From the NCBI GenBank assembly GCA_030695165.1, contig JAUYTH010000096.1, positions 1-37,897 on the forward strand: DNA of 37,897 nucleotides, written 5' to 3'. Made by a program: the position numbers and the translations under genes. This document shows positions 31,774 to 37,897 of this stretch, piece after piece; position 1 is the first letter of the stretch, and each line of letters begins with the position of its first letter. The DNA is from Bacteroidales bacterium. Lineage in GTDB: Bacteria > Bacteroidota > Bacteroidia > Bacteroidales > UBA932. The notes under the pieces are model-generated. The model worked only from the letters and a program-made list of their open reading frames with translations, was not told the DNA's origin and did no database searches.

Positions 31774-32127
31774 ATGGATAATACCATCAAAAATAGCAAT
31801 ATACCTATCCCCGATCTTCAATATTTAAAACAGATGATTGGAGATGATCAGGAGGTTTTAAAGGAGGTGCTCACAATCTTTATCGAAGAGATGCCCACAA
31901 TGCTCAAAAACCTGAGAGAGAGTAGTGAATCCAGGGATCACGACAGACTAAAGTCCATCTCCCATACTATGATAACCGAGTTGTCAACTTTGGGTATTAC
32001 ATCAGTTTTAAATGATGTGAAGGCAATCAATAAAGGGAGCCGAGAGATGAGAGATATGGATGAAACAGTAGATAGGATAATAAGAGCTGTTACATTCAGT
32101 ATAGAGTATTTTAAAACGTTGATTTAA
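31774..32127 (+). CDS. Hpt (histidine phosphotransfer) domain protein
   Basis: 117 aa helical; YLKQMIGDDQEVLKEVLTIFIEEMPTMLKNLRESSESRDHDRLKSISHTMITELSTLGI, with the His in the canonical position. Adjacent to a response regulator. Confidence 0.82.
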   Translation: MDNTIKNSNIPIPDLQYLKQMIGDDQEVLKEVLTIFIEEMPTMLKNLRESSESRDHDRLKSISHTMITELSTLGITSVLNDVKAINKGSREMRDMDETVDRIIRAVTFSIEYFKTLI

Positions 32128-32135
32128 AACTACCT

Positions 32136-33494
32136 ATGGCAAAAATTTTAGTTATTGACGATGACAGGCTAATCCGTAAAATAATTACGACCATTCTCAG
32201 AAAAGATGGCCAGGAGGTTTTTGAGGCAGAAGATGGAGAGATTGGAATGGGTATTATTTTGTCTGAACGTGTGGAACTTGTTTTAACAGACTTTCAAATG
32301 CCGGGAAAAAACGGACTTGAGGTTTTGTCAGAAATTGTTGCTCTTAAGCGTGGGATTCAGGTTATTATGCTTACGGGGTTTGGAGATATTACTCTAACAA
32401 TAAAAGCAATACAGCAGGGGGCTTTTGACTTCCTGGAAAAGCCGATAAATCCTGTTCTGCTTAAAGATGTCATTCATAAAGCTCTTACCTCTGTAAAGCA
32501 GAGTGCAATATTAACAGATATCCTAAGAGAAAATCTTGATGCAATACCCAATTTTGACAGCACACTTCTGGTTGGAAGAGCACCACAGATGAAAGAGATC
32601 TTTAAGAGTATCGGGCTTATCTCAATGAATAAAGTTAATGTTTTGATTCAGGGAGAGACCGGTACAGGAAAGGAGCTAATTGCAAGACTAATCCACTTCT
32701 CCGGGATTACACACGATAAGCCCTTGGTTGTGGTAAATTGCAGTGCTCTAACAGAGACATTGCTGGAGAGCGAACTCTTTGGTCACGTTAAGGGATCTTT
32801 CACAGATTCAATCAGAGATAAAAAGGGTAAATTTGAACTGGCCGCAGACGGAACTATCTTTTTAGATGAAATATCGGAGATTTCTTTGAATACGCAGGTA
32901 AAATTATTAAGAGTTATTCAGGAACTTGAGTTCGAAAAGGTTGGAGGGGACTCTCCAATTCCTATGAAGGCAAGGATAATTACTGCCTCAAATAAAAACC
33001 TGGAAGATCTCATTAAACAGGGTAAATTCAGGGAAGATCTTTACTACAGATTAAAAGTATTCACAATAACACTTCCTCCATTAAGAGAGCGTAAAGAGGA
33101 CATTAATGATCTCATAATACACTTTCTAGTTAAGTTGAACAAAAGGTTCAATAAAAATGTAAAAAAGATAGGGGATGGAGTAATTGAAATGCTTAAAGAT
33201 CACGATTGGTATGGAAATGTACGTGAGCTTGAAAACACACTTATGCAGGCAGTAGTTATGTCTAAGAGTGATGTTTTAGAGATAGAAAATATAATTCTCA
33301 ATAAGAGAGAGGTTGATTTCACCGAAAAAGACGATGAAGTTTTTGAAATGAAACCCCTTTCAACTATTGAAAAGCATTATATTAAAAGAGTTTTGGATGC
33401 AGTAAAGTGGAACAAACTTGAGGCATCCAGAATACTGGAGATTACACGGCCAACTCTTAATGCAAAAATTGAGAAGTACGATATCCAACCCTGA
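32136..33494 (+). CDS. Sigma-54-dependent response regulator (NtrC family: REC-AAA+-Fis HTH)
   Basis: REC (VIDDD, LTDFQMPG, MLTG, EKPI), AAA+ (GETGTGKE, GTIFLDEI, WYGNVRELENTL), C-terminal Fis-type HTH (LEASRILEITRPTLNAKI). Confidence 0.95.
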   Translation: MAKILVIDDDRLIRKIITTILRKDGQEVFEAEDGEIGMGIILSERVELVLTDFQMPGKNGLEVLSEIVALKRGIQVIMLTGFGDITLTIKAIQQGAFDFLEKPINPVLLKDVIHKALTSVKQSAILTDILRENLDAIPNFDSTLLVGRAPQMKEIFKSIGLISMNKVNVLIQGETGTGKELIARLIHFSGITHDKPLVVVNCSALTETLLESELFGHVKGSFTDSIRDKKGKFELAADGTIFLDEISEISLNTQVKLLRVIQELEFEKVGGDSPIPMKARIITASNKNLEDLIKQGKFREDLYYRLKVFTITLPPLRERKEDINDLIIHFLVKLNKRFNKNVKKIGDGVIEMLKDHDWYGNVRELENTLMQAVVMSKSDVLEIENIILNKREVDFTEKDDEVFEMKPLSTIEKHYIKRVLDAVKWNKLEASRILEITRPTLNAKIEKYDIQP

Positions 33495-33499
33495 GCCGG

Positions 33500-36400
33500 C
33501 TATCTGGGTGTAATTACTATAAAAGAGTCTCTCCACCCAAGCTTTCTTAAGAGTGTGAGCAGCTCTTCTGCCTCCTTCCGACTATTCATAATACCGCAGA
33601 AATATCTGTAATAACCGTCTTTGCCAAGATTTTCTTTGATTACTATATTAGGGAATTTATTATAAATGGCAGAGAAACCCTTTTCAATAGAAATAGGTTT
33701 TCTGGCTGCCAGTATTTGCACGGAGAAAAGTTCAGGTGCAGGAAGAAGATTACTTTCTGACATATAGAGTGGGATAATAAATGACTCCTCCCAACCGGCC
33801 TTAACAATTTTTTTGTTGACAACTTTTGCATTTTCAAGCGTTTCAAATAGCTCTGCAGAATACCTGTAAAAGCCGTCCTCACCCAAATTTTCCACAATAT
33901 TGATATCAGGTATTACAGATATGATTGATTTAAAATGCTCATTTATAACAATTTTATTGGAGGTTGCCAAGAGTTGTATTTTGTATACAACTCTTCCCGA
34001 ATGATATGTCTCAATAGCCAAAGTGTCTTTTTCGGATATTACACTTTTAGGTATTATAATCTCCTCTTTGTTATATACAGTGCTCTTCTCGACGCTGTCT
34101 AAAGAGCCATTTTTCTCAATTGTAAACACAAGCTCTTCGGTAAGATCTCCGTATCTTGAGGCAGAAATTGAAAACTTAATAAGCCCTGGAGTGGATGTCA
34201 TATTTAGTTTTTGCATCTGATCTTTATTAATAACAGCATAATAATCACCGGGAGTAAAGCCCAGTAAACTGAAAAATCCATCATCTTCGGATAGGGTGCT
34301 CTTAACAAGCTTAGAATCACTATTGTAAAAATCAACAATAACTCTTCCCTGCCCCGATTGTCCTGAACTACTCTTCAGGTAAACCATTCCGTTTGCCTCT
34401 CCATAAACATTTACAGGAACCTCAATCTTCTTAATCTGGTTAGATTCTACTGTCACATCATACACCTTGTTTTTCAGTTGCCAGGCAATATTGTCAAAGC
34501 TGGAGCCGGAGAAAGTAAGCAGATACTTTGAGTATGATTCAAGGTCGAATACTCTTATAGTTGTATCTTTTACATTATATTCTACACGTCCTCCATTTAG
34601 GTGTAACTGAAGACCATAAACTTTTGGTTCACCCTTATCTTTCTTCCCATTACAATTTATGTCCAGGTATGGGTAAATTAACAACCCCCCTTTGCCTGCA
34701 TTAGGCCTTCTGCTACTGCCTATATACCTGTTCTTTGCATCTACAATAATACTTCCACTGGCAGTTTCTGTGAATGAAGTGGTGTTATTATCCTTTCTGG
34801 CATTAATATTAATTTGAGCGAAAGAGAAATCGAAACGAATTCCAAGATCAATATTTGTGAAGTTATTTATTAAATCCTTCTCATATGAGGCAGAAATGTA
34901 ACCATTTTTCAAAATCCGCTTCTCAAGTACAGATTTAAATGATGTGAATTTGCCTTGGCTATAGTTAAACTGAGACTGAGGTGTTAAGATAAAACCACGA
35001 GGAAACCTCATCGATAAAGACAGGGTACTGTAGATATCAGGATTTAGCATTTGGGAGAATATTGCGCTTGTGGTCAAATTTGCATTAACACCCATAAAGG
35101 CACTTGACATAAGCAGCTCAACAGCAGTGTATTTTGATTGCGGCATTATAAACTGGTTTGCAGATAATCTCGAAAACAGAGCTATATTTTTACCTCTGAT
35201 AGGCACCGATAACGAAATCTTTCTCTCTTCTGTGTAGTTTGTATTTATTGCGGTTTGACCTTTATCGTATTTCACATAATTGGCCTCAAACTGGAAATCG
35301 GAAGGTAATCTATAATTCATTGTTCCTTCTAATTTTGCTCCGTATGTGTACTCTCCGGATATGATTAATCTTGAAGAGACCCTAATTGATGAGCGAATAA
35401 AGGGAAGAAATTGCCCTGATGTTTTTGATGAGAGAAATTCAACTCCACCTCCAACTGTTATAGATCTGGAGATCCCATAGTCCATATTTAATCTTGAAAA
35501 GACTCTTCCAAGCGAATCCTCTGTAACGCCGCCGCTAAGATTGTATTCAAACACACCCTTTGGAAGGAAATTATAAGGGATGTTAATGCTCTTCTCTTTA
35601 GACCTCTCCTCACCCCAGGGTCCGTAAAACTGAAGTTTAACGCTTGTGTTTCCATAAACAAGAGGAACTTCAAATGAGAAAAACCCGGATGCATCTGCTT
35701 TTTTATAATCTACCAGTACATTATTAACAAATAATTCAACCAGCCAGCCGGGTTCTGTCACATCACTCAATGTATATGTACCGTAAGATTGTCTGTAAGT
35801 TGTAGGAGTATTTGTAAGTTGCAATCCAATAATAGGAGCGTTTAATGAAGCAACGGCATCCGTTGTTATTTTACCGGCGACTATCTGCTTAAATACCTTA
35901 AAATCATTATTTGTATATCTCCAGTAATAGTTCTGATCTCTCAGGGAGAGTGCAGTTGCATCATTATAGTTAAAAGCAACATTCAGCTCCCCTCCAGCCA
36001 AAGTAGATCCTAAAGTAACAGCCAACCTGTTGTTTGTCTCTCCGCCAACTTTTTGGGAAGAGGTAACCGACCAGTCTGCAACCCCAAAACGAAAGAGCGG
36101 GTAGCTTCTTGCGATTAAGGTATCTGCCTTAATTTCCCCTCTTATCTGATTTATATTTTTTCTCATCTGTTCATTACGAATCTCACGAATAACAGGAAGT
36201 TCGATTTTAGTATTAAGAATAACAGAGAGACTCCTAAAATTAAAAGTGCACTCAAGGCCAAACACCTCACCAAAATAGTTTGCTTTTAAATATAAATTTG
36301 TTTCAGTTCGGAGAATATCGCCCTCTTTAATGTTAAATACCCTTTTCTGATACTCTATTTTAGAGTTTACACGATCAATGAGATAAGAGTCACTCTCAGA

Positions 36401-36697
36401 TAAAAAAAACCCGGTCACGGAGTCAAACCCGGGAGAGGAGGTGTTTTTAATTTTTAAGAAATTAAAGAGGTCTGTTATCGAGAGATAGAGCTTCTCATCA
36501 TAAATAAGGGCAGGAAGTTCGGCCCCGCCAATTTTTGGCAGACTTAGAAAGACATTAACCTCATCATACTCCTGCTCTTGTTGTGCGCTTAAGCGGGATG
36601 TGAATAGAAGAAGAGAGACTATAAGCAGGGAGATAAACTTATAGTAAGATCCGGTTATAAAGCGGATCTTCTTAGATGAAGAGGGTAAATATGCCAT
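33500..36697 (-). CDS. Fimbrial usher-like outer membrane protein with C-terminal tandem SPOR-like repeats
   Basis: 1065 aa with signal peptide. Usher-like segment DVTEPGWLVELFVNNVLVDYKKADASGFFSFEVPLVYGNTSVKLQFYGPWGEERSKEKSINIP; long beta-rich barrel region; C-terminal SPOR-like repeats. Operonic with PapD-like and DUF4402 genes. Confidence 0.75.
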   Translation of the reverse strand: MAYLPSSSKKIRFITGSYYKFISLLIVSLLLFTSRLSAQQEQEYDEVNVFLSLPKIGGAELPALIYDEKLYLSITDLFNFLKIKNTSSPGFDSVTGFFLSESDSYLIDRVNSKIEYQKRVFNIKEGDILRTETNLYLKANYFGEVFGLECTFNFRSLSVILNTKIELPVIREIRNEQMRKNINQIRGEIKADTLIARSYPLFRFGVADWSVTSSQKVGGETNNRLAVTLGSTLAGGELNVAFNYNDATALSLRDQNYYWRYTNNDFKVFKQIVAGKITTDAVASLNAPIIGLQLTNTPTTYRQSYGTYTLSDVTEPGWLVELFVNNVLVDYKKADASGFFSFEVPLVYGNTSVKLQFYGPWGEERSKEKSINIPYNFLPKGVFEYNLSGGVTEDSLGRVFSRLNMDYGISRSITVGGGVEFLSSKTSGQFLPFIRSSIRVSSRLIISGEYTYGAKLEGTMNYRLPSDFQFEANYVKYDKGQTAINTNYTEERKISLSVPIRGKNIALFSRLSANQFIMPQSKYTAVELLMSSAFMGVNANLTTSAIFSQMLNPDIYSTLSLSMRFPRGFILTPQSQFNYSQGKFTSFKSVLEKRILKNGYISASYEKDLINNFTNIDLGIRFDFSFAQININARKDNNTTSFTETASGSIIVDAKNRYIGSSRRPNAGKGGLLIYPYLDINCNGKKDKGEPKVYGLQLHLNGGRVEYNVKDTTIRVFDLESYSKYLLTFSGSSFDNIAWQLKNKVYDVTVESNQIKKIEVPVNVYGEANGMVYLKSSSGQSGQGRVIVDFYNSDSKLVKSTLSEDDGFFSLLGFTPGDYYAVINKDQMQKLNMTSTPGLIKFSISASRYGDLTEELVFTIEKNGSLDSVEKSTVYNKEEIIIPKSVISEKDTLAIETYHSGRVVYKIQLLATSNKIVINEHFKSIISVIPDINIVENLGEDGFYRYSAELFETLENAKVVNKKIVKAGWEESFIIPLYMSESNLLPAPELFSVQILAARKPISIEKGFSAIYNKFPNIVIKENLGKDGYYRYFCGIMNSRKEAEELLTLLRKLGWRDSFIVITPR
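33503..33988 (-). repeat. Two tandem SPOR-like repeats in the C-terminus of the usher-like protein
   Basis: Repeat 1: VYKIQLLATSNKIVINEHFKSIISVIPDINIVENLGEDGFYRYSAELFETLENAKVVNKKIVKAGWEESFII. Repeat 2: FSVQILAARKPISIEKGFSAIYNKFPNIVIKENLGKDGYYRYFCGIMNSRKEAEELLTLLRKLGWRDSFIV. They share VQ-like start, (I/V)(V/K)ENLG(E/K)DG(F/Y)YRY and GW(E/R)(E/D)SFI. Confidence 0.8.
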
Positions 36698-36719
36698 CTG
36701 AAGAAAAACTTAAGGAGAC

Positions 36720-37211
36720 TTAGTTATAATTGAAGGTTACATTAAACGTACCCACATAGTTTCCAGGGGGGTTTGCTGTTATGCTTCCAACTATCAAGGT
36801 GGCACCAACGTTTATAATTGCAGTTCGGTTGCGGATATTAATGTTAGGCGAGGGGCTGGTTATGAATGTTATTAAAGAGAGGGTTCCCCCTCCACCAACC
36901 CTGGTTAAAGTGGCATTAGGGATGGTAATGCTGGTGATATTCCTTACCCTATTATTACCTCTTACTTCAAAAATTGCATTGGAAGATATTCCGCCACTGA
37001 GCAATACAATATTACCGGTAGATGTCCGGGCGCCTGAAGCACTAATTATCACGCTACCCCCTGCACCTAAAGGATAAAATATTCCGAAGCTAAGATCCTG
37101 TGTTTTTTGGACAGTAACATCCTGGGAAAAGTGAACCTTTGGGATAAAAAGAATAAAAGCCAGCAGAATAAGTTGTCTAAATATTTTAATATATGAATAT
37201 TGTCCGTTCAT
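36720..37211 (-). CDS. DUF4402 domain-containing secreted protein (putative fimbrial-type subunit)
   Basis: 163 aa with signal peptide; DLSFGIFYPLGAGGSVIISASGARTSTGNIVLLSGGISSNAIFEVRGNN...GNYVGTFNVTFNYN matches the DUF4402 pattern. Confidence 0.82.
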   Translation of the reverse strand: MNGQYSYIKIFRQLILLAFILFIPKVHFSQDVTVQKTQDLSFGIFYPLGAGGSVIISASGARTSTGNIVLLSGGISSNAIFEVRGNNRVRNITSITIPNATLTRVGGGGTLSLITFITSPSPNINIRNRTAIINVGATLIVGSITANPPGNYVGTFNVTFNYN

Positions 37212-37216
37212 TTAAA

Positions 37217-37897
37217 TTATCTTAGAAGAAATTCAGTCTCAGCAAATTTTTCCGGCTTTGTGTCCGATTGAGATAGGTATGAGATAATCAGTTTACCTGT
37301 TTTATAGTTTACTGCCCTCTCGTTTGAAAGATAAATTTTGAGAGTTCTCGATTTGTTGGGGGTATAAACAGCAACTCCGTTAAGAGACCCAACAGGGGTT
37401 TGTTTTCCGTTTGGTGCTACATATACAACTCTAAGATCGCCATAAACAGACATATTGCCGCTTCGGTTAAATTTGATCTCAAGAACTTTAGTTGTGTCGT
37501 CAAGATCTTCAAATTTAACATCAGAAAGATTTACTTTTACTTCGGGTGTTCCGACCCTTATAATAACAGGAATTGTAATGCCGAATACAGGAGTAAGCTG
37601 CACACTTACAGATGTTGTGTCTTTTTTAAGATCTTCAGCTCCAAGAGCTTCTAGTTTAGGAACAGATCTAAAATATACGTGTGACCGATACTCCCCCGGT
37701 GCAAGCCTCTCCATATTTGTTACCTGCATCTTGACAACCTGAGCCTCATTTGGCCCAAGAGTTACTGTTCTGGGGAAAAAGCGTATATTCTTGTCTGCAA
37801 AGTATTGACCCGGATCCGGCTCTGTAATTTCCGTAAATGAGCCATCTTCATTCATCCTGTACTGAATAAGGGAGACATTATATTTTGAAGAGTCAAC
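37217..37897 (-). CDS. PapD-like periplasmic pilus chaperone (partial; N-terminus lies beyond the right edge)
   Basis: Reading frame is open to the edge (upstream of the ORF-track Met: VDSSKYNVSLIQYRM...). FFPRTVTLGPNEAQVVKMQVTNMERLAPGEYRSHVYFRSVP...VFGITIPVIIRVG resembles PapD/FimC domain 1. Confidence 0.75.
   Translation of the reverse strand, partial: VDSSKYNVSLIQYRMNEDGSFTEITEPDPGQYFADKNIRFFPRTVTLGPNEAQVVKMQVTNMERLAPGEYRSHVYFRSVPKLEALGAEDLKKDTTSVSVQLTPVFGITIPVIIRVGTPEVKVNLSDVKFEDLDDTTKVLEIKFNRSGNMSVYGDLRVVYVAPNGKQTPVGSLNGVAVYTPNKSRTLKIYLSNERAVNYKTGKLIISYLSQSDTKPEKFAETEFLLR

Follow-up and report, generated by a model that had tools for sequence, protein, structure and literature searches.

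The DNA analysed here (hereafter the window) is the whole of contig JAUYTH010000096.1 (37,897 nucleotides; C56 in our numbering) from a draft genome of a Bacteroidales bacterium of the UBA932 lineage (GCA_030695165.1; 2.55 Mb, 89% complete), and it very probably covers the 3' end of an operon encoding a chaperone-usher system that builds a surface fibre. Its last 4.4 kb carry three minus-strand genes, encoding a PapD-like chaperone, a secreted DUF4402 protein and a 1065-amino acid (aa) outer-membrane protein. They lie 5 and 22 bp apart. The open reading frames (ORFs) and these gaps confirm the close packing and the edge-cut chaperone gene reported in the preliminary description of this DNA, and the peptides quoted there were found. 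In its working and its usher fold the system is of a known kind, yet divergent, being a Bacteroidota-borne chaperone-usher system based on DUF4402. In the literature searched, with subscription papers and preprints outside it, no prior description was found and DUF4402 was not mentioned. A whole class of surface fibres seems to have gone unrecognised, and DUF4402, a family of unknown function, would gain a role as a chaperone-usher subunit.

The usher, its chaperone and the DUF4402 subunit

The 1065-aa protein is an usher, on a confident prediction of its fold. The AlphaFold model, built with an alignment of 47 relatives (predicted local distance difference test (pLDDT) score 82.7), contains an N-terminal domain, a barrel of about 24 strands (25 predicted) with a plug insertion (small strands at aa ~319–372), β-sandwiches and two SPOR-type domains; the barrel was taken from predicted secondary structure. 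In a Foldseek search of the PDB, places 1 to 17 were all occupied by FimD or PapC (E = 1.6e-27 to 1.2e-14), with the best non-usher at 2e-10. An usher-type barrel with plug, as proposed earlier, is thus supported by the model and by its closest structural matches. Template modelling scores were moderate (0.42–0.56 by target length), which makes the protein a distant relative of FimD/PapC. When the family profile was aligned by hhalign with eight Escherichia coli K-12 ushers, the match reached E = 1.2e-6 with a score of 67.4, against 16.5 for the reversed profile and at most 21.4 for 12 column shuffles. The plug is the best-conserved stretch of the family.

The usher tail deserves separate attention. 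PF05036 (SPOR) exceeds its cut-off at aa 988–1054, aa ~900–979 represent a second copy with 36% identity, and SPOR is present in 21 of the 47 relatives. Through these two domains the assembly platform is probably anchored to peptidoglycan. We did not find this combination of usher and SPOR described in the literature searched, where texts with both terms concern, by title, other subjects; the pairing suggests a new anchoring mode for a pilus platform. The tail varies by lineage, one usher (L142:1489-4470) having a C-terminal TPR repeat in place of SPOR. Proteins from two genomes (G061 and G079) were rejected as ushers, as their matches were confined to the SPOR tail.

The contig end removes the first ~56 residues of the chaperone, a length estimated from a full-length relative (L073:4605-5453, 85% identical). 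Its profile matched eleven E. coli K-12 chaperones (hhalign E = 8.8e-7, score 52; shuffles ≤18.9), and the protein is 35% identical to a Polaromonas protein annotated as ‘fimbria/pilus periplasmic chaperone’. PapD_N was matched weakly in 15 of 30 relatives (best 8.8e-6) and over the Pfam cut-off in two proteobacterial ones.

The small protein between them belongs to PF14352 (E = 2e-21), and its model (pLDDT 94.4) is all-β past the signal peptide. Among 350,542 PDB chains the nine best Foldseek matches were chains of Caf1, CfaB and CsuA/B, and by our own count 29 of the top 50 were chaperone-usher fibre subunits, but at E = 0.026–0.45. These individually weak matches lend support, rather than proof, to a pilin-like fold, a less firm prediction. 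In a set of 106 DUF4402 proteins, the N-terminus preceding the LxFG motif had a median length of 17 in usher-adjacent copies (14 in multi-copy loci) versus ~27 in the others, and the longer N-termini show an alternating pattern, e.g., ATATATATVITPISISKNTDM. Two classes can thus be distinguished, one with an N-terminal extension (shaft type) and one, the usher-adjacent copy, lacking it. They fit donor-strand exchange, in which shaft subunits carry the extension and the tip does not; since the usher-adjacent DUF4402 has none, unlike its shaft-type paralogues, it is probably the tip or first subunit. The preliminary description had located the donor strand at the wrong end of the protein: GNYVGTFNVTFNYN is the C-terminal strand, and the chaperone-usher donor strand is the N-terminal extension, absent from the window's copy.

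A number of results weigh against this interpretation. Single-sequence Pfam searches yielded no usher domain in the 1065-aa protein and no PapD model over cut-off in the window's own chaperone, and PF00577 matched only 2 of the 47 usher relatives, at E = 5e-4 or weaker. Two PapD immunoglobulin-like (Ig) domains had been expected in the chaperone; the first is upheld by the PapD_N matches in relatives and by the K-12 profile match, and the second is supported less strongly, by its length and conservation and by how far the alignment extends. The DUF4402 model had no structural match under E = 0.001 in the PDB chains, and the match of its profile to E. coli pilins was confined to the last 38 columns. 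The difference in N-terminus length (Mann–Whitney p = 3e-4) ignores relatedness and uses approximate signal-peptide ends set by a crude rule. Finally, PDB sequence searches with single proteins and profiles found no chaperone-usher protein at a convincing E-value, the proteins being too divergent.

Operon conservation and proposed assembly of the fibre

The gene order is conserved. Loci of the same genus read DUF4402 ×3–chaperone–DUF4402–usher, and the usher gene converges with a gene for an NtrC-type regulator. In 41 of 47 dissimilar loci a DUF4402 gene lies directly 5' of the usher gene, on the same strand and with a gap below 200 bp (a 42nd has 201 bp); the arrangement is not accidental. 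The chaperone was found in all 14 usher-bearing genomes tested and in none of five same-genus genomes without the usher. In one genus (g22) the DUF4402-usher pair stands alone and the chaperone is encoded at a second locus among DUF4402 genes; at least one such locus has a sigma-54 regulator of its own close by. The usher profile matched in 96 of 399 Bacteroidota genomes (some matches to C-terminal domains only), and named loci include those of Chitinophaga, Niastella and Daejeonella. The near-universal linkage of DUF4402 and usher genes, together with the predicted fold, supports the divergent chaperone-usher-like pathway exporting DUF4402 subunits that had been postulated for the locus.

At least two more DUF4402 fragments occur at contig ends of the window's genome, contigs C214, C273 and C25 ending within near-identical DUF4402 genes. 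Near-identical subunit genes are expected to break an assembly, and these ends probably show where the operon was split upstream of the window's genes.

In the mechanism we propose, DUF4402 subunits would enter the periplasm by Sec, where the PapD-like chaperone would cap their incomplete Ig folds and deliver them to the usher, whose barrel in the outer membrane would be gated by the plug. The usher-adjacent DUF4402, without extension, would start the fibre as its tip, and shaft-type subunits, encoded further upstream, would be joined at the usher by donor-strand exchange via their N-terminal extensions. The SPOR-type domains would hold the usher to peptidoglycan, and the NtrC-type regulator would activate the main subunit gene through sigma-54.

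In several Bacteroidia loci, large proteins with type A sorting tails of the type IX secretion system (T9SS) are encoded directly 5' of the DUF4402-usher pair (L084:2751-5339, L091:3401-5410, L094:3303-5333, L097:1-5385 and L074:1-4083), which suggests joint action of type IX secretion and the chaperone-usher machinery. Two other neighbours were dismissed as pilus parts after their sequences were judged by eye: a ~280-aa gene 3' of the usher in relatives is endonuclease IV-like, and a ~290-aa gene flanking the usher in genus g22 encodes a glycosyltransferase.

The machinery might make no pilus and instead secrete or display individual DUF4402 proteins, or a capsule-like coat, possibly in the service of a large type IX-secreted protein of the same operon. 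Some loci do have a single DUF4402 gene beside the usher, T9SS-tailed proteins precede the pair in many Bacteroidia loci, and Caf1, the best structural match of DUF4402, forms a coat made up of thin fibres. Where a locus has three or more DUF4402 genes bearing N-terminal extensions, however, the arrangement fits polymerisation, and genomes with lone DUF4402-usher pairs hold more DUF4402 genes at the separate chaperone locus; we therefore consider this explanation unlikely. It is far less likely still that the window's organism carries a non-functional system or a remnant of one: the genome is a draft, and the five same-genus genomes without the system indicate that it is dispensable, but the reading frames of usher and DUF4402 are intact with family-conserved residues kept, and the near-identical DUF4402 copies found at other contig ends have retained open frames. 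That the 1065-aa protein resembles ushers only superficially and belongs to another type of large outer-membrane barrel (LptD-like, TonB-dependent or a peptidoglycan-anchored porin) is least credible of all, as it draws on the lack of a Pfam usher match and on carboxypeptidase-regulatory-like domains, which are common in TonB-dependent receptors too, whereas LptD (~3.5e-7) and porins fall at ~1e-7 to 1e-6 in the Foldseek list against 1e-27 for FimD, the plug aligns with that of FimD in proteobacterial homologues, and chaperone and subunit co-occur with the usher.

Plasmid-borne homologues and known systems

The same DUF4402-chaperone-usher cassette was found on plasmids of alpha- and betaproteobacteria, namely Polaromonas, Novosphingobium and Sphingopyxis (L200, L201, L202 and L203), so the system is not particular to Bacteroidota. 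These cassettes comprise the same three protein families as the window. They differ in being plasmid-borne, in having no matched SPOR domain and in their order, DUF4402-(hypothetical)-(DUF4402)-chaperone-usher. The plasmid ushers aligned almost end to end with the window's usher family (hhalign E = 4.5e-50) and with K-12 ushers at E = 5.2e-8, with plug regions in register with FimD. By these profile comparisons they bridge the window's family and the ushers of E. coli K-12. Databases label them as ‘carboxypeptidase-like regulatory domain’ or hypothetical proteins, which explains why such ushers have been missed so far. Several of the plasmids were typed as conjugative.

FimD and PapC are the nearest solved structures to the window's usher, and the FimC/FimD and PapD/PapC pili of Proteobacteria share with the window a barrel with plug, a PapD-like chaperone, small secreted β-sandwich subunits and gene clustering. 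The window's system differs from them in sequences far under Pfam thresholds, DUF4402 subunits, an SPOR-type usher tail and its Bacteroidota host. With archaic (sigma) pili such as Csu it shares small single-domain subunits and a broad phyletic spread, and CsuA/B gave one of the best structural matches to DUF4402. A search of the window's genome for SCPU (PF05229) returned nothing and is uninformative, as no control genome matched either. Archaic systems have been listed for Proteobacteria, Cyanobacteria and Deinococcus-Thermus, and Bacteroidetes are not in the list (2015, PMC4654587); a 2016 survey of ushers names Proteobacteria, Spirochaetae, Cyanobacteria and Deinococcus/Thermus, again without Bacteroidetes (PMC4827864). 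By the tests made here (no PF00577 in the window's protein, DUF4402 subunits), the system is placed outside all named clades (alpha, beta, gamma, kappa, pi and sigma). Type V (FimA/Mfa1) fimbriae are also fibre-forming surface proteins of Bacteroidota, but they consist of lipoprotein subunits and are assembled without an usher; DUF4402, in contrast, has no cysteine in its signal peptide and no fimbrillin domain match in the Pfam search.

Neighbouring regulators and motor genes in another class

An NtrC-type regulator gene is the neighbour in all same-genus loci, and the Hpt gene next to it is kept in several relatives (Table 1). The genome encodes RpoN. A strict scan for the sigma-54 consensus gave no overall signal. 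A sigma-54-like motif such as TGGCACACTTTNTGA was found on contig C214 of the window's genome and in most loci of the same genus, 63–88 bp 5' of the shaft (main subunit) DUF4402 gene; the expected rate of the relaxed motif, 0.019 per 350 bp, is optimistic, as the motif was picked after the first scan, and the match is suggestive only. Expression of the main subunit gene is probably turned on by the regulator via sigma-54. A conserved form, TGGCACACTTTNTGANTTATAA, is present at L198:8642 (contig C214) and in same-genus loci, with a -12 part unlike the usual TTGC.

Table 1 Features of the window and of motor-bearing relatives (coordinates are those of the window unless a locus is named)
Feature	Position	Strand	Basis
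PapD-like periplasmic chaperone, 226 aa, ORF open at contig end	37217..37897	-	PapD_N in relatives, hhalign, relative L073
DUF4402 subunit, 163 aa, signal peptide, without N-terminal extension	36720..37211	-	PF14352, AlphaFold, Foldseek
Usher-like outer-membrane assembly platform, 1065 aa	33500..36697	-	AlphaFold, Foldseek, hhalign
Usher N-terminal periplasmic domain, aa ~40-200 (putative)	36098..36580	-	AlphaFold secondary structure
Usher β-barrel, aa ~202-653, 25 predicted strands without plug	34739..36094	-	AlphaFold secondary structure
Usher plug domain inside barrel, aa ~314-377 (TEPGW...ELFVNNVLVDY...FYGPWGEER)	35567..35758	-	Small-strand insertion in model; homologue alignment
Usher C-terminal β-sandwich domains (SdrD_B / carboxypeptidase-regulatory-like), aa ~654-862	34112..34738	-	Pfam, AlphaFold
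Two C-terminal SPOR-type domains of usher, predicted peptidoglycan-binding	33515..34000	-	PF05036 and internal repeat
Sigma-54-dependent response regulator (NtrC type), tail to tail with usher; putative role	32136..33494	+	Pfam
Hpt phosphotransfer protein, kept neighbour; putative role	31774..32127	+	Hpt E = 2.6e-4, slightly under Pfam cut-off
Motor genes directly 3' of usher	L206:10099-15008, L207:8789-13738, L208:9088-14034, L211:9037-14129, L215:9450-14179		Pfam run on L208

In another class of Bacteroidota, the DUF4402-chaperone-usher cassette continues with genes for a FliF/FliG fusion, a TPR protein, MotA and a MotB-OmpA-SPOR protein. The fusion (608–622 aa) matched FliG_M (7.9e-12), FliG_C (2.7e-11) and PDB FliG (E = 5e-14), with a weak FliF part (E = 0.02), and MotA was matched at 1.7e-16. 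Counted from positions, a FliG match lies within ~3 kb of the usher in 17 genomes. Three of these (G250, G290 and G346; completeness 98–99%) have no FlhA-family export gate, so their motor is not flagellar. No FliG was found in the window's genome. The motor genes in sister lineages raise a surprising and directly testable question. We tentatively suggest that the DUF4402 chaperone-usher class might include rotary-motor machines, in which an ion-driven rotor would turn or load the usher-built fibre, the window's SPOR-tailed usher then representing a motorless branch self-anchored to peptidoglycan; this presupposes a possible coupling between motor and usher. A 445-aa gene in the other-class relatives was considered as a two-domain tip adhesin and rejected: its DUF4402 match covers the signal-peptide region only, and it is FliF/FliG instead.

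A second FliG-containing ORF of ~610–620 aa is located far from the usher in genomes of this same set (G314:C12, G187:C61, G203:C12, G226:C2, G346:C1:812061 and G290:C1:502270). Additionally, proteins with prepilin-like N-termini, one of them with DUF4900 and a bactofilin-like match, are encoded 5' of the DUF4402 cluster, at L208:183-2653 and the corresponding places in L211 and L215.

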